Source of the DNA: Microscillaceae bacterium
GTDB lineage: Bacteria > Bacteroidota > Bacteroidia > Cytophagales > Microscillaceae
DNA length: 44,998 nt
Assembly: GCA_025054775.1 (NCBI GenBank)
Contig: JANWZA010000038.1
Coordinates: forward strand, 1-44,998
Direction: 5' to 3'
Shown here: in pieces, positions 4,370 to 37,880 of the stretch
How positions within the stretch are numbered: position 1 is the first letter of the stretch
How the letters are laid out: every line of letters starts with the position of its first letter
The notes under the pieces: generated by a model
What the model saw: the letters and a program-made list of their open reading frames with translations, nothing else
Databases searched by the model: none
What the model was told of the DNA's origin: nothing
Program-made: the position numbers and the translations under genes

Positions 4370-5911
4370 ATGAACCAACCCGAAATACGTGTGCGTTTTG
4401 CTCCCAGCCCCACAGGAGCCTTACATATTGGCGGTGTACGTACTGCTTTGTATAATTACTTGTTTGCTAAAAAACACAACGGCAAATTTTTACTTCGTAT
4501 AGAAGATACCGACCAAAACCGTTATGTAGATTTTGCTGAAAATTACATCAAAGAAAGTTTAGAATGGTTAGGCATCGTTCCTGACGAGTCGCCTTGGGCG
4601 GGTGGCTTATGTAGCCCTTACCGCCAATCAGAAAGGAAAGAAATTTACCAAGAATATGCCCACAAAATGGTTGCCGAAGGCAAAGCGTATTACGCCTTTG
4701 ATACTGCCGAAGAATTGGAGGCTATGCGGAAGCGGTTAGAAACCGAAGGTGTGTCTAACCCACAATACAATGCCCTTTCGCGTGAGCAAATGAAAAATTC
4801 ACTTACTTTGCCCAAAGAGGAAGTAGAGGCACGTTTGAAAGCAGGAGAGCCTTATACCATTCGTATCAAAGTACCACGCAAAGAGGAGATTCGGCTTAAT
4901 GATTTGGTACGTGGTTGGGTTGTGGTGCATAGTTCGCAAATTGATGATAAAGTGCTGCTCAAATCTGACGGAATGCCCACATACCATTTGGCAAATGTAG
5001 TAGATGATTATCTCATGGGCATCACCCACGTCATTAGAGGTGAGGAGTGGCTACCTTCTGCCCCGTTGCACGTACTTTTGTATCGGTTTTTAGGTTGGGA
5101 GGCTAAAATGCCACAATTTGCCCACTTGCCTCTTTTGCTCAAACCTGACGGCAACGGCAAATTAAGCAAACGCGACGGCGATATGCACGGTTTCCCTGTG
5201 TTTCCTTTGGCTTGGACAAACCCCGAAACCCAAGAAACAGTGCGCGGTTTTAGAGAAGAGGGCTACCTACCCGAGGCACTTATTAACTTTCTAGCGTTTT
5301 TAGGTTGGAATCCAGGCACTGAACAAGAAATTTTTAGTTTGGACGAATTAGTACAAGCCTTTTCTATTGAAAAAATTAGCAAAGCAGGGGCTAAATTTGA
5401 TATTAAAAAAGCTCAATGGTTTAATCAATACTATATTAAGCAAAAAGATAATGCTTTTTGGGTAAATTACCTGTTACAAAACTGTCCTTATCCCTTAGAA
5501 AAAATACAAGCTGAAGCCATAGTAGCTCTGCTTAAAGATCGTATTACTTTTCCAAAAGATTTTTGGGAGCAGGCTCCTTATTTATTTCAAACTCCCGAAA
5601 ATTACGATGAACAGACATTAGCCTCTAAATGGACAAATGAGGTGAGCCTCGTGCTAAAACAATGGAAAACCCTTATTCCAACAATAGATAACAAGGATTG
5701 GAATGCTGAAAATATAAAACACACTTTGCAACAAATTACTGAGAATCAAGGAATTAAATTAGGAAAGGTAATGCAACCCATTCGCATAGCCCTTACAGGT
5801 GTAGCCCAAGGAGCAGATTTAATGCTCATTGCCCAAATCATTGGAAAAGACGAAACCTTAAAACGTATTGAAAAAATATTAGCCAAAATGCTACAAAAAG
5901 AAAAAATATGA
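4370..5911 (+). CDS. gltX: glutamate--tRNA ligase
   Basis: This is the class I aminoacyl-tRNA synthetase that charges tRNA-Glu with glutamate in the cytoplasm. The 513-residue protein opens with the catalytic signature FAPSPTGALHIGG (the HIGH motif) and carries the second signature as KLSKRDG near residue 264. Between them are the family segments IRIEDTD-like LLRIEDTDQNR and RGEEWLPSAPLH. I chose the ATG at 4370 because MNQPEIRVRFAPSP is the normal start; an ATG four codons earlier is also in frame. Its length is normal. It lies alone, about 100 bases before the proline dehydrogenase gene. Whether it charges only tRNA-Glu or also tRNA-Gln cannot be decided from this window. Confidence 0.97.
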   Translation: MNQPEIRVRFAPSPTGALHIGGVRTALYNYLFAKKHNGKFLLRIEDTDQNRYVDFAENYIKESLEWLGIVPDESPWAGGLCSPYRQSERKEIYQEYAHKMVAEGKAYYAFDTAEELEAMRKRLETEGVSNPQYNALSREQMKNSLTLPKEEVEARLKAGEPYTIRIKVPRKEEIRLNDLVRGWVVVHSSQIDDKVLLKSDGMPTYHLANVVDDYLMGITHVIRGEEWLPSAPLHVLLYRFLGWEAKMPQFAHLPLLLKPDGNGKLSKRDGDMHGFPVFPLAWTNPETQETVRGFREEGYLPEALINFLAFLGWNPGTEQEIFSLDELVQAFSIEKISKAGAKFDIKKAQWFNQYYIKQKDNAFWVNYLLQNCPYPLEKIQAEAIVALLKDRITFPKDFWEQAPYLFQTPENYDEQTLASKWTNEVSLVLKQWKTLIPTIDNKDWNAENIKHTLQQITENQGIKLGKVMQPIRIALTGVAQGADLMLIAQIIGKDETLKRIEKILAKMLQKEKI

Positions 5912-16080: not shown

Positions 16081-19000
16081 ATGAAGGCAAAATATTACTT
16101 TTTATTATTTTTTTGTCTGTTGTTACATATACACAGTTTTGCTCAAATTTGTTCTACTTGCAACTCTACAAGTAGCGGAAATTGGGATAGTCCAGCTACG
16201 TGGGGAGGCTATACACCTGCTAATAACGCCATAATTACCATTAATCCAGGCCATACCGTAACTTCTACCTCTGCATTAGATCTGTTGGATGGTCAAGATA
16301 TTACAGTAAGTGCGGGGGGAAACCTTATTTTGAAAGCAGGAAATACCTTTCCTCGTTTTATAGACATCACCGTGAATGGTATGTTAATATTAGAAGGCGG
16401 AAGCATTAGCGCAACCACGTCAATTACCGTAAACGGTACATTGAGGTTAGAAGGGGGATCTATTAACACAACTATCCTTAGTTTCAATAATGCCTCAGTT
16501 TACGAACATGCCCGCGATGGAGGTATGATTCCCTTTGCTAGCTGGAATATCAATTCTACCTGTCGGGTTGTAGGAATAGTAAGTAGCCCAATCACTGGGG
16601 GGGTGCATCAAACTTTTGGAAATTTTGAGTGGAACTGCCCCTCTCAAAATATTATACAAAACGTTCCTGCTGGTCCGAATGTCAACATCAAAAAAGATTT
16701 TAGAATTATTCATACAGGTACAGCCTCTTTTAATTTAGGTGCTGGTTTCTTTTTTGTAGATGGGCTGACTACAGTTGGAACTAACGGATTCTTACAAGAC
16801 ACTGACTCTAATGGAGGCAACTTCTTCCGAGGAGACGTCGTAGTAGATGGGAAATGGGATACGAGTACACTACTTGTTAATGTACACCTTGGAAATGGAA
16901 TTTCAGGAGGGAATATTACACACAACAATCCTACGCCTAACTCTTTTCTTGCTTATGAGTTAGTATTTACTACACCAGGAAGAAGTTTGAATGGTGCTCC
17001 TAATGCTGCAGAGTTTAAATTGGAATTTTTAACTATCGGTAATTTTACACCAGGTATTACCAACAACCACAAGGTGAATATAAAGAATTTAATTCTAAAT
17101 CCATCTAACGGTTCTTTCATTCAAGGCAACGGAAGTATTTTGCGGTTTAGAGATGCAAGCCAAATCCTTCCTATTCCTAATCCCTCTCTTACTGATTTTC
17201 ATACCAACCCCAATCTTGTAGAATACATAGGTGAAAATGGTGATATATTTCCAGATGATTACCATAGCTTGGGCATAAATACTAACAATTCTAGTAATAC
17301 TAAAATTTTGACAGGTGGTAACATTTTAGTAAATCACAGCCTTTCACTTACGAATGGCAAAATAACTTTGAATAATAATAATCTGATTTATGGTGGTAGT
17401 GAAGCAAACCTCACACGCACCAACGGCTGGGTAGAAACAAATGGTACAGGTGCTTTTGTGCGAAGTACAGGAGGAGCTAACCTTACTTTTCCAGTGGGTA
17501 ATGCCTCACATTATCAGCCTGTACGTTTACTTAATGCAGCTGCCAATGCCTCAGTACGTTATGGCGCACCTTCGGTATCTGTCCCTATGGGAGGTCCGGG
17601 TTCATGGTACATTTTTAATACAGCTTCTTCTCAAATCTCCTTTATCAGTCCTTCAGGGTCTTTTTTGTATCATACCTCTACAATTCACAGGCTTATTTCT
17701 GGCATATGGTCTGCTGAATCTACTACCTTCTCTACAGGTACTTATACTACTAACAATTTGTTCTTTCTTCTCGTAGAAACAGAATTTTCAATCTATTCAA
17801 GAGACTTTTATACACTTGATGATTTTGCTGCTTGGAATAGTAATTCTAGCTGGTCGCTTGATGGCACTACTCTCTGCGTTTGTAATCCTAACAATATACC
17901 TAATGCACGTGTAATTATTAGACATAATACTTCTATTCCCGCAGGAGCCTTAGTGGGGACGCAAGCCATTATCGATATACAAGAGCCTGTTACTCTAACT
18001 TCCGACATAACTTTCTCTGCCGCTCAACTTTTGGGAGTTTCAGGAGCGAGACTTCGTATGATTATCAACGCTTTGCCTACCATAACCAATAATACCTTTG
18101 TTACTACCTCAGGCACCATAGTAGAGTTTGCAGGAGGTGGAGGTACTATTCCTAACCAATTTGGTACATACTATTACAAGAATCTAGTTATTGCAGGAAC
18201 GGGTACTAAAACACCTAGTGGGATTATTATCATACAAGAAAACCTTAATATAAATTCAGGTATATTTTCTTCTCCTTTAACAGGATTAGATAGTTTAAGT
18301 GTAGCAGGAACTACTACCATTGCAAGCGGTGCTACCTTCTCTGATGGTGTAAACCAAAATGCTAATAGTTTCGGTACGATTATCAATTATGGTACATTCA
18401 CCGCTTTGGGAGGAGGTAGTAATTTTTCTACTTTCAATTTTAGAGGAAATATAATTAATCATGTAGGAGCTACATTCAATACTAATTGCAACTGCGTGCA
18501 TATCTTCAACAAGTCCTTTGCACCGCCACTTATTATAACTCCAAACAGTCCTATAACTTTCGGAGCTACGAACTTAGGAAGTGCTTTCTTCTATTCTGAT
18601 GCCATAATTGCTGATGGAAGCCAAGTTACTTTTAATATAGCTGATAACTCTTCCCTAACAATCGCAAACAACAGAACAGTAATCAACAATAATACCAACG
18701 TACAAATCAATGGAGATGGGCAACTGAACGGTGCGGATAGCAATAGCAAATGGCTACAAGGTTCAGGTGCTGTTTTGAACTATGCTTCTGACAAAGTACC
18801 TATGAGCATAGGTATACTTGATGCGAGTACGAACGATAATACCGTTAATTACAACCGTGTGGGCAATCAATCATTAAAAGCCACTATTTACCGTACTTTG
18901 CAACTCACTAACAATAGCGTCAAAACTATTCCTGCAGGGACAGGAAATATCACTATCCAGAATGCTTTTACTATACCTGCAGGTGTTACTTTCCAAGTAA

Positions 19001-33774: not shown

Positions 33775-34062
<288 letters not shown>

Positions 34063-34069
34063 AGCAAAC

Positions 34070-34105
34070 ACACATTCTAAGGCTTGCTTAGAATGTGTTG
34101 CTTTT
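34070..34105 (+). terminator. intercistronic hairpin with T-run between atpE and atpF
   Basis: ACACATTCTAAG (34070-34081) and CTTAGAATGTGT (34087-34098) form a perfect 12-pair stem with a five-base loop, followed by TGCTTTT. This has the form of an intrinsic terminator, although both flanking genes belong to the ATP synthase. It could lower transcription past atpE or stabilise the 3' end of the upstream mRNA. Confidence 0.8.
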
Positions 34106-34142
34106 CAATAACAAAATCAATCGTCTCTTCAAACTTTTACTA

Positions 34143-34150
34143 TATCTTTG
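34143..34150 (+). promoter_or_regulatory. Bacteroidota -7 box (TATCTTTG) in front of atpF
   Basis: TATCTTTG is an exact TAnnTTTG match 30 bases before the atpF ATG and 38 bases after the T-run of the preceding hairpin. No matching TTTG is seen 19 bases upstream. It suggests that atpF onward has its own transcription start. Confidence 0.5.
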
Positions 34151-34179
34151 TAGTGTTCTATCATTTTAGCAGTATACAT

Positions 34180-34674
34180 ATGGATTTAATTAAACCTGAA
34201 TTTGGACTTATTTTTTGGCAAACCGTTACCTTTTTAGTGGTAGTGTTTGTCCTTTCACGCGTAGCCTGGAAACCAATTATTAATGGTTTGAAAGAGCGTG
34301 AAAAAAGCATAGCAGAAGCCTTAGAAAAGGCCGAACAAGCCCGTAAAGAAGTTGCTTTGAGCCAAGCTAATAACGAAAAGCTATTAGAAGAGGCTCGCAT
34401 AGAACGTGATAAGATTATAAGATTAGCTCAGAAAGCCGCTGATGATTTTCGCAATGAAGCTTGTAATAAAGCCTCTGCCGAAGCTGCTAAAATTATTGAA
34501 GAAGCTAAAAAAGCCATAGAAACAGAAAAGCAACAAGCTTTAGCACAAATTAAAACTCAGATTGCTACACTCTCTATTGAAATTGCCGAAAAACTTTTGA
34601 AACAACAACTAGAAAATCCCGAGAAGCAAAAGCAATTAGTAGAGAACCTCATCAAAAACTTAGAACTTAATTAA
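34180..34674 (+). CDS. atpF: ATP synthase F0 subunit b
   Basis: The 164-residue subunit b forms the peripheral stalk. It has one N-terminal membrane helix (LIFWQTVTFLVVVFVLSRVAW) and then a long charged alanine/glutamate-rich helix that dimerises and reaches up to delta. I chose the ATG at 34180 because MDLIKPEFGLIFWQ is the normal start in this phylum. The longer frame from 34084 would begin inside the hairpin and add an unusual cysteine-containing stretch. It ends 17 bases before atpH. Its length is normal. Confidence 0.94.
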   Translation: MDLIKPEFGLIFWQTVTFLVVVFVLSRVAWKPIINGLKEREKSIAEALEKAEQARKEVALSQANNEKLLEEARIERDKIIRLAQKAADDFRNEACNKASAEAAKIIEEAKKAIETEKQQALAQIKTQIATLSIEIAEKLLKQQLENPEKQKQLVENLIKNLELN

Positions 34675-34691: not shown

Positions 34692-35231
34692 ATGACCGAA
34701 CAAGCCGTTTCACGCAGGTATGCCAAATCCTTGATGAGTGCCGCCATAGCAAGTAACAAAGTAGAAGAGGTATATAGAGATATGAATACCATTCTACAAA
34801 CATTACGGCAGAGTCCACAACTAAAGGCTGTCCTGAAAAATCCTGTTATTAGAGGTACTAAAAAATTAAATATCCTCAGAGGAATTTTCAAGCCTCACGT
34901 AGACCCACTTACTATGTCTGAATTAGAACTCCTAGCAAAGAAAAGCCGTGAGGAACTCCTCTATAATGTCTGTGAAAATTTTAATGCCTTATACTTTGAG
35001 CAAAAGAATATAGTTTTTGGAGAGGTTATATCCGCAATTGCCCTAGATAGAAAAATCCTGGAAACCTTAGAAGCAAAGTTTTCAGCAAAACTTAATAAAA
35101 AGGTGATATTCCAAACTAAAGTAGACTCCAGCATTATCGGAGGACTAATAATCAATATTGAAGGCAAACAAATAGATAGTTCTATTAAAAGTCAATTACA
35201 AAAACTAAAACTGCAATTTATTCAAAAGTAA
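34692..35231 (+). CDS. atpH: ATP synthase F1 subunit delta
   Basis: Subunit delta joins the peripheral stalk to the top of the alpha-beta hexamer. The 179-residue protein has the helical N-terminal domain starting AVSRRYAKSLMSAA and the conserved C-terminal part FQTKVDSSIIGGLIINIEGKQIDSSI. It sits 17 bases after atpF and 16 before atpA, in the usual order and in the same transcript. Its length is normal. Confidence 0.94.
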   Translation: MTEQAVSRRYAKSLMSAAIASNKVEEVYRDMNTILQTLRQSPQLKAVLKNPVIRGTKKLNILRGIFKPHVDPLTMSELELLAKKSREELLYNVCENFNALYFEQKNIVFGEVISAIALDRKILETLEAKFSAKLNKKVIFQTKVDSSIIGGLIINIEGKQIDSSIKSQLQKLKLQFIQK

Positions 35232-35247
35232 GTAATTTTATTAAACT

Positions 35248-36831
35248 ATGGTAAAAATACGACCTGACGAAATTTCCGCAATCCTACGAGAGCAACTCTC
35301 TAACTTCAAAACCGAAGCTGAACTAGAAGAAGTTGGTACAGTATTACAAGTAGGCGATGGTGTAGCACGTATCTATGGGTTAGGAAAAGCCCAAGCGGGA
35401 GAGTTGGTAGAGTTTAGCTCTGGTACAAAAGGCTTAGTTTTCAATTTAGAAGAGGATAACGTAGGAGTAGTTATTTTCGGAGAATCAAGTAGCGTAAAAG
35501 AAGGAGATAATGTAAAGCGAACTTCGCAAATTGCATATATAAAAGTAGGGGAAGGCATGTTAGGGCGGGTAGTAGATACCTTGGGCAATCCTATTGATCG
35601 TGATGAGCCCATCCCAGGTAAACTTTACGAAATGCCCCTAGAACGAAAAGCTCCTGGGGTGATTTATCGCCAACCCGTAAACGAACCTCTGCAAACAGGT
35701 ATCAAAGCCATTGACGCTATGATCCCTATAGGTAGAGGACAACGCGAATTGATAATCGGAGACCGTCAAACAGGTAAAACTACGGTCGCTCTTGATACTA
35801 TCATTAATCAAAAAGAATTTTATGAAAAAGGAGAACCTGTGTACTGCGTATATGTAGCGGTAGGACAAAAGAACTCCACCATTGCCCAAGTGTATGATAC
35901 CTTAAAAAAAGCAGGTGCTATGGCATATACAATTATTGTAGCTGCTCCTGCCTCCTCACCCGCCCCTATGCAGTTCTTCGCTCCTTTTGCAGGAGCTGCT
36001 ATCGGTGAATACTTTAGGGATACAGGGCGCCCTGCTTTGGTAGTTTATGATGACCTTTCTAAACAAGCAGTTGCCTATCGAGAGGTTTCGCTCCTATTAC
36101 GCAGACCTCCAGGACGTGAGGCTTACCCTGGAGATATATTCTACTTGCACAGCCGTTTGTTAGAACGTGCCGCCAAAATCAACTCTTCTGACGAAGTAGC
36201 GCGAGCTATGAATGATATTCCCGAGTCCATTCGGCACTTGGTAAAGGGAGGCGGTTCTCTTACAGCTCTACCTATCATTGAAACACAAGCAGGTGATGTT
36301 TCAGCATATATTCCTACTAACGTAATCTCTATTACTGACGGACAAATTTTCTTAGAAACTAATCTCTATAACGCAGGTATTCGCCCTGCTATCAATGTAG
36401 GTATTTCAGTTTCACGTGTAGGCGGTGCAGCACAAATCAAATCCATGAAAAAAGTAGCAGGTACACTCAAACTTGACCAGGCTCAGTTCCGCGAGTTGGA
36501 AGCCTTCGCTAAATTCGGTTCTGACCTCGATGCCGCTACTAAACTTACTATTGAGCGAGGCAGACGAAACCAAGAAGTCTTAAAACAAAATAAATACTCC
36601 CCACTTGCCGTAGAGCAACAAGTAGCTATCTTGTATGTTTCTACTAGTGGATTGTTAGATGATGTTCCTTTGGCACGTGTGAAAGAGTTCGAACACGAGT
36701 TCCTGAAAACAGTGGCTATTGAAGCCCCAGACACCCTAAAATCTATTAAAGCAGGCAAAATAGATGATGCTGAAAAGCAAGCCCTTGAAGCAGTGGCTAA
36801 AAGCTTGAAACCTAAATACGTAAAAAAATAA
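35248..36831 (+). CDS. atpA: ATP synthase F1 subunit alpha
   Basis: The 527-residue alpha subunit forms half of the catalytic hexamer and carries the non-catalytic nucleotide sites. The P-loop is [15 protein letters not shown] near residue 170. [36 protein letters not shown]-type segments are intact, including the arginine finger region [12 protein letters not shown]. The start [17 protein letters not shown] is normal. The beta and epsilon genes are not in this window, which agrees with their separate locus in most Bacteroidota. A perfect hairpin separates atpA from atpG. Confidence 0.97.
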
Positions 36832-36857
36832 TTTGTATTAGTTTACTTATTTGCAAT

Positions 36858-36892
36858 CTACCTTTGTAATTTTTACTACAAAGGTAGTTTCT
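36858..36892 (+). terminator. intercistronic hairpin between atpA and atpG
   Basis: CTACCTTTGTA (36858-36868) pairs perfectly with TACAAAGGTAG (36877-36887) around eight bases and is followed by TTTCTTT. It looks like a terminator or attenuator inside the atp cluster. The left arm also contains TACCTTTG, an exact -7 box that could start transcription about 40 bases before atpG, so the element may have either role. Confidence 0.7.
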
Positions 36893-36913
36893 TTAACCTA
36901 ATCTAATAATGTT

Positions 36914-37804
36914 ATGCCAAGTTTGAAGGAAGTACGCAACCGCATAAAGTCGGTAGAATCTACACAACAAATAACCAAAGCCATGAAAATGGTATCGGCT
37001 GCAAAATTACGCAAAGCCCAGGAAAATATTTTACACATGCGTCCTTACAGCCAAATGTTGACCAAAATTATTGCAAATCTATCAGCAAATATAAGTCAAG
37101 AGGATTTACAAAGTCCTTATACTCAAGTGCGTAGCCCTGAAAATGTACTCATCATTATCATCACCTCTGATAGAGGATTATGTGGAGCATTCAATTCTAA
37201 TATTGTAAAAGCTTCTATTGCCTTAGCACAAGAGAAGTATGCAAGCCAATGGGCAAACCAGAAAGTTAGCTTTCTGTGCGTAGGTAAAAAAGGATATGAA
37301 GCCATGGCACGCAGGCAATATAAAGTAAATAAAGAATTTCTAAACTTATTCACTAAACTTAATTTTGATGCCGTACGTAAAGCTGCTGAATATATTTTAG
37401 ACTCTTATGCACAAAAAATTTACGATAGAGTGGAGATAGTTTACAATGAATTTAAGAATGTAGCTACACAAATTATACGACAAAAACAATTCCTGCCTAT
37501 CGTGGCCGAACAGGATAACCTAACCAAAACTAAAATACAGTATGATTATATTCTTGAACCTTCTAGAGAAGAAATTATACAAGAACTTATACCCAAAGCT
37601 CTAAAAATAGAATTCTATAAGGCATTGTTAGACTCTAACGCCGCAGAACACGGGGCAAGAATGACCGCCATGGATAAGGCTACTGAAAATGCAGGTGAAT
37701 TATTGAAAATTCTTAGGTTAGTATACAACCGTACTCGACAAGATGCAATTACTAAAGAAATCCTAGAAATTGTAGGTGGTGCTGAAGCTTTGAAACATAC
37801 TTAA
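36914..37804 (+). CDS. atpG: ATP synthase F1 subunit gamma
   Basis: Gamma is the central rotating shaft of F1. The 296-residue protein begins with the typical helix MPSLKEVRNRIKSVESTQQITKAM and MVSAAKLRKAQ. It has the middle segment IIITSDRGLCGAFNSNIVK and the C-terminal helix AEHGARMTAMDKATENAGELL. All conserved blocks are present and its length is normal. It is the last gene of the cluster, and a 15-pair terminator follows 17 bases after the stop. Confidence 0.96.
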   Translation: MPSLKEVRNRIKSVESTQQITKAMKMVSAAKLRKAQENILHMRPYSQMLTKIIANLSANISQEDLQSPYTQVRSPENVLIIIITSDRGLCGAFNSNIVKASIALAQEKYASQWANQKVSFLCVGKKGYEAMARRQYKVNKEFLNLFTKLNFDAVRKAAEYILDSYAQKIYDRVEIVYNEFKNVATQIIRQKQFLPIVAEQDNLTKTKIQYDYILEPSREEIIQELIPKALKIEFYKALLDSNAAEHGARMTAMDKATENAGELLKILRLVYNRTRQDAITKEILEIVGGAEALKHT

Positions 37805-37821: not shown

Positions 37822-37880
37822 AAAAACACTTACAAAGATGCACTACCTCATTTGTAAGTGTTTTTGTTTTTTCTTTTTTT
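37822..37880 (+). terminator. strong terminator closing the atp cluster
   Basis: AAAAACACTTACAAA (37822-37836) pairs perfectly over 15 bases with TTTGTAAGTGTTTTT (37851-37865), followed by GTTTTTTCTTTTTTT. The next gene starts only 11 bases after the T-run, so its own promoter must overlap this hairpin unless it is read through. Confidence 0.92.

Follow-up and report, generated by a model that had tools for sequence, protein, structure and literature searches.

A predicted cis-acting RNA hairpin with a conserved pentaloop follows atpE through much of the class Bacteroidia

Introduction

Subunit c of the ATP synthase is needed in about 8-15 copies. That a single operon yields many c for each b, delta and gamma is commonly attributed to translation initiation. 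Shine-Dalgarno pairing plays a small part in Bacteroidia. Conserved RNA structures are known inside an ATP synthase operon (the cyanobacterial ATPC RNA, Rfam RF01067) and after a highly expressed gene (the L17 downstream element). The former lies at another junction and in another phylum than the hairpin described here, which follows atpE in Bacteroidota; the latter belongs to another gene and to other taxa. The L17 downstream element appears in the text of PMC2864571.

The nearest described mechanism is that of the selective RNA processing and stabilization (SRPS) operons, for example in Clostridium cellulolyticum, where a hairpin after one operon gene is thought to set transcript and protein ratios (PMC8219983). 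These hairpins are graded there by U content into stabilizers, stabilizer-terminators and terminators, and ATP synthases are among the predicted cases. The atpE hairpin is alike in being an intra-operon hairpin after one gene, but it occurs in another phylum, and the terms 'conserved' and 'loop sequence' are absent from the main text of PMC8219983. In Methanococcus maripaludis, partial termination inside operons (ioTTS) likewise sets uneven subunit levels; the mechanism is archaeal, however, and the ATP synthase operon of this organism is reported there to be without such a terminator (PMC10450193). Programmed operon mRNA decay in E. coli also uses RNA structures to protect one mRNA segment, but the protecting structures lie inside downstream coding sequence, and ATP synthase is unmentioned in the main text (PMC5927463). 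In chloroplasts, BFA2 (atpF-atpA) and PPR10 (atpI-atpH) are described as blocking exonucleases so that subunit-c mRNA is kept, although by a bound protein instead of a hairpin and at other junctions (PMC6474325). Literature searches among open-licence papers found no report of a conserved hairpin after atpE.

Results

The analysis started from a contig stretch of 44,998 nucleotides of a Microscillaceae bacterium, here called the window. The gene order read in it is atpB-atpE-atpF-atpH-atpA-atpG. The stop codon of atpE occupies 34060-34062 and the start ATG of atpF lies at 34180, which leaves a gap of 117 nt. The genes and the parts of the hairpin are as follows.

33793..34062, + strand: atpE, ATP synthase subunit c, 89 aa (TIGR01260, 55.6 bits, cut-off 43.95)
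34180..34674, + strand: atpF, ATP synthase subunit b, 164 aa (open reading frame and profile match)
34692..37804, + strand: atpH (34692), atpA (35248) and atpG (36914), downstream of atpF (open reading frames and profile matches)
34061..34104, + strand: whole hairpin, 18 pairs with a 3-nt bulge (MFE structure)
34070..34081, + strand: 5' arm of the perfect 12-pair core (inverted-repeat search, MFE structure)
34082..34086, + strand: pentaloop GCUUG, a member of the R-N-U-D-G loop class (MFE structure, loop-class comparison)
34087..34098, + strand: 3' arm of the perfect core (inverted-repeat search, MFE structure)
34102..34105, + strand: short U-tract, T4 (TGCTTTTCAA) (sequence; terminator score of the window hairpin)

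The perfect 12-pair stem with a 5-nt loop that the original prediction had placed after atpE was confirmed at 34070-34098. The T-run said to follow it is present, but it is short, with four T only. Six outer pairs extend the predicted stem (34061-34066 with 34099-34104, beyond the 3-nt bulge), and the whole hairpin thereby takes in the final two bases of the atpE stop codon. The fold of 34060-34190 had a z of -5.04, and 0 of 200 dinucleotide shuffles folded as well. Between 30000 and 42000 the hairpin ranked top of the terminator-like list. This range held 13 terminator-like sites compared to 8.5 (sd 3.1) in shuffles, so terminator-like sites, as a class, are not rare here.

The absence of the hairpin from close relatives would have spoken against the prediction. 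An atpE search found the locus in 54 of 57 related genomes; three members of the same family gave no atpE locus. A pentaloop hairpin was present at 10 of 12 same-family junctions, the window included, with stems quite different in sequence. Of the other two, one had a hairpin with a different loop and one a gap of only 15 nt. The same motif was found in loci of named genomes (80 loci), among them Cytophagales, Flavobacteriales and Sphingobacteriales. The loop class was defined first and then tested on additional genomes, sampled evenly over phylum and class. Each set of identical junctions entered the counts as one, and the class of named loci was taken from record names, three of which (L062, L094 and L110) say only Bacteroidetes. 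In this way 206 of 207 Bacteroidia loci were analyzed, one being too short. The motif was seen in 132 of them, 58 had another hairpin of -12 kcal/mol or better and 16 had neither. Among loci with an atpE-atpF gap of 40-200 nt the R-N-U-D-G hairpin occurred in 128 of 182, compared to 7 of 910 shuffles. Loci unused in defining the motif gave a similar picture at gaps of at least 40 nt (70 of 103), and 37 of 61 holdout family groups had at least one case. The 70 nt after the stop codon folded with a z below -3 in 165 of 188 Bacteroidia loci with a gap of at least 40 nt (median -4.64). The distance from stop codon to loop was narrow (median 26.5 nt, IQR 23-31). Thus, the terminator-like or 3'-stabilizing hairpin that had been proposed after atpE is supported by its conservation in relatives.

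The motif was rare in other classes of Bacteroidota (1/37) and absent from the 10 loci of other phyla; one of four loci of unassigned class, counted apart, carried it. At gaps below 40 nt no hairpin was found (18 Bacteroidia loci, motif 0/18), and the motif was absent from all 14 named loci of Bacteroides, Phocaeicola, Prevotella-type, Muribaculaceae and Dysgonamonadaceae. The element is therefore dispensable. Several families retain a hairpin with a different loop, and in five Hymenobacter loci a long G+C-rich hairpin takes the place of the motif. In two loci of one family group (L250, L251) the gene after atpE is not atpF but presumably encodes an MlaD-type protein; both have hairpins with other loops.

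The loop was then counted free of any choice of motif. The most stable hairpin had a five-base loop in 140 of 182 loci, with R at position 1 in 137, U at position 3 in 128 and G at position 5 in 134 of the 140. Hence the loop is conserved where the stem is not. A C-G pair closed 117 of the 140 loops; a G-C pair closed 11, and closes the loop in the window. GGUUG is the commonest member of the class. Across the same loci, 24 of 27 terminator-like hairpins at atpE-atpF had a loop of this class, and none of the 320 other terminator-like hairpins did. A looser scan of all stems with a 5-nt loop gave 27 of 38 at atpE-atpF and 40 of 1423 elsewhere. No support was obtained for pairing of the loop with the spacer or with the CAACC of Gln-Pro codons in atpE: complements of the own loop were no commoner than with permuted loops, neither in atpE (49/124 versus a mean of 46.7) nor in the spacer (9 versus 9.4). 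Mimicry of 23S rRNA was also dismissed, as two 23S loci gave just 3-4 bp look-alikes. A small stem-loop in these 23S rRNA sequences (L373, L374), CAC-GAAUG-GUG, resembles the GAAUG loops found downstream of atpE in L185, L190 and L191.

Further support for a structured RNA is provided by the stem. In an alignment of 52 gapless cores the covariation score was 0.904, a value that 0 of 500 shuffles reached (shuffled mean 0.236); with the partner arm slid, the score was at most 0.344. These cores represent 52 of 62 motif hairpins and were motif-selected, so that the invariant loop columns are partly a matter of construction. A second set, restricted to GGUUG (70 cores from 73 such loops), scored 0.916 compared to 0.232 when shuffled. 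Here the second pair from the loop was always purine-pyrimidine (42 A-U, 27 G-C, 1 G-U). The number of pairs changed on both sides did not discriminate in the 52-core set (13 versus 12.5 in shuffles). G-U pairs outnumbered A-C mismatches in the Bacteroidia hairpins (83 versus 25), which identifies the paired strand as coding-strand RNA. Covariation and G-U excess together point to an RNA of the coding strand.

The motif was largely confined to one junction. It followed atpE in 33 of 68 loci, compared to atpB 2/71, atpF 0/71, atpH 0/66, atpA 1/70 and atpG 0/67 (3/345 pooled). After atpA, the fold z was below -3 in 30 of 70 loci, often owing to long repeats without conserved loop or U-tract. In the atpA-atpG gap of many Bacteroidia (L036, L052, L064, L069, L079) long imperfect palindromes of short tandem repeats were seen, without a conserved loop. 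In the window, a hairpin at 36858-36887 between these two genes carries in each arm a TACCTTTG -7-like box, in opposite directions. The idea that a hairpin punctuates the operon after every high-copy subunit was rejected. At atpD-atpC a z below -3 was found in 7 of 30 loci and the motif loop in 0 of 30, and a general link of hairpins to high-copy subunits is not borne out.

Genome scans were carried out with two models, and their counts are to be read knowing that many of the atpE loci also built the models. Model R1 (E up to 1) gave a single match in each of 17 of 22 named genomes, 11 of these at atpE; the other six (E 0.01-0.99) were all elsewhere. With stricter filters it matched 7 of 57 relatives, only one of them (G045) at its own atpE by place, and most of the relatives' atpE hairpins, that of the window among them, escaped it. 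Its second-best match in the window was a terminator-like inverted repeat at 2560-2603. Model R2 (E up to 1e-3) placed 13 of 15 matches at atpE by coordinates in 40 genomes and 13 of 13 in a second set of 21 genomes, most R2-scanned genomes being scored on 150 first-pass candidates only. The two matches away from atpE were ordinary terminators with a GGUU tetraloop. Ordinary terminators with a motif-like C-GGUU-G tetraloop were noted in L330, L343 and L342, the last from the window's own genome. These scans cover genome-wide uniqueness of the motif only in part.

No Rfam 15 family reached its gathering score in the window. Between 33600 and 34400 (E up to 10) all matches were sub-threshold, the best being mir-9457 with 25 bits against 90. 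ATPC RNA (RF01067) had no match in either search. In seven loci only Flavo-1 was detected, twice in a Flavobacterium locus (L052, at 4860-4949 and 16117-16261) and both times away from atpE.

Terminator character was scored on the d'Aubenton-Carafa scale. A positive score was obtained for 120 of the 132 motif hairpins after atpE; elsewhere this was the case for atpG 39/56, atpA 9/57, atpB 3/51, atpF 0/57 and atpH 3/54. The window hairpin, with its T4, was marginal (2.8). Counted from the last G-C pair, the U fraction at the five following places was 0.73, 0.77, 0.74, 0.67 and 0.62, and it was at background by about place 8. The enrichment hence spans about five to seven places, which is shorter than at the operon end. 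Indeed, T-runs of at least five were found in 47 of 128 hairpins at atpE-atpF, compared to 33 of 56 at the operon end. In the window, that end holds a good terminator candidate.

37822..37865: terminator candidate downstream of atpG, with a 15-pair stem and a long T-run behind it (score 16.5)

A stable stem directly followed by a U-tract, which characterizes an intrinsic (Rho-independent) terminator, is hence present in the 120 of 132 positive cases and marginally in the window. The hairpin also has the arrangement of an SRPS-type intra-operon stabilizer, that is, a stable hairpin between co-directional operon genes, after a subunit needed in excess.

The original prediction further invoked an exact -7 box about 30 bases before atpF and separate transcription from atpF onward. 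The box exists and is separated from the ATG by 29 bases.

34143..34150, + strand: TAnnTTTG match (TATCTTTG), unsupported as a promoter (pattern match)

TAnnTTTG occurs 120 times on both strands of the window (69.5 expected from shuffles), and at this density about 0.16 copies would fall by chance on the right strand of the 117-nt gap. The sigma-A consensus of Bacteroidota has TTG/TTTG at -33. Reading by eye found no TTG at the usual spacing upstream of the box. Between hairpin and atpF the box was not conserved in Bacteroidia (3 of 158 loci, 3.9 expected from shuffles). Separate transcription of the downstream genes is therefore unsupported.

Discussion

Comparison between loci established the position of the predicted atpE hairpin, its covarying stem and coding-strand orientation, a conserved pentaloop for which C-G is the usual closing pair, a short tract of U and a strong bias towards the junction of atpE and atpF. 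As far as sequence comparison can tell, the hairpin acts in cis as an RNA structure at the 3' end of atpE and has been kept by much of the class Bacteroidia. Termination, stabilization and an effect on the subunit ratio we infer. The short U-tract and the positive terminator scores in 120 of 132 hairpins favor a leaky intrinsic terminator that is also a 3' stabilizer, and we consider it rather probable that such a terminator, guarding the 3' end of the atpBE mRNA, raises c over b, delta, alpha and gamma. Some atpBE transcripts would end at the hairpin, and the hairpin left at their 3' end would shield them from 3'-5' exonucleases. The remaining transcripts would read through into atpF-H-A-G. 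Both effects would yield more subunit c than b, delta, alpha and gamma, and the pentaloop might add a further function beyond termination and shielding. An excess of c over a cannot be explained in this way, because atpB is located upstream of atpE in the same orientation.

A pure 3' stabilizer would dispense with termination. Read-through would be full, an endonuclease would cut in the AU-rich spacer ahead of atpF, and exonucleases would degrade the new 3' end as far as the hairpin, so that a stable atpBE mRNA would remain. Stem-loops of this kind are described in SRPS operons, with ATP synthases among the predicted ones (PMC8219983), and a U-tract that is short, and marginal in the window, would suit them. 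However, a pure stabilizer has no need of U enrichment at the stem end or of scores above 0 in 120 of 132 hairpins, and we regard it as unlikely. The loop raises another question, because it is conserved where the stem varies (R in 137, U in 128 and G in 134 of 140, C-G closing 117) and is absent from the 320 other terminator-like hairpins found in these loci. A protein, a small RNA or a part of the ribosome or RNA polymerase might bind it and so tune termination or atpE mRNA decay. We put this forward tentatively, as a possibility, for complements of the own loop stay at the permuted-loop level in atpE (49/124 versus 46.7) and spacer (9 versus 9.4), the two 23S loci offer 3-4 bp look-alikes only, and several families retain the hairpin with a different loop.

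The full model of the original prediction, a terminator plus a new promoter for atpF-H-A-G, has the exact TAnnTTTG at 34143-34150 in its favor, but the missing -33 element, the 3 of 158 boxes against 3.9 expected and the 0.16 expected by chance in the gap make it very improbable. That the perfect inverted repeat acts as a DNA palindrome (operator, recombination site or dispersed repeat) and not as RNA is hardly credible: the stem sequence varies while pairing is kept, G-U pairs outnumber A-C mismatches, the loop is asymmetric on the coding strand and the place is fixed relative to the atpE stop codon (median 26.5 nt, IQR 23-31).

New is that a single junction carries a conserved loop across much of the class, without an Rfam family among those searched. 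This loop points to a candidate RNA family that the searched Rfam copy does not contain, and may lead to a binding factor. The R-N-U-D-G pentaloop could conceivably, though we remain doubtful, be a recognition site by which a Bacteroidia factor switches read-through of the ATP synthase operon or decay of atpE mRNA; ring-subunit supply would then be under a dedicated single-locus RNA switch. The leaky terminator and stabilizer favored here probably helps the cell to make more ring subunit than its downstream neighbors. A class-wide hairpin exactly after atpE would be an answer to c-subunit excess at the transcript level, and one that is directly testable.
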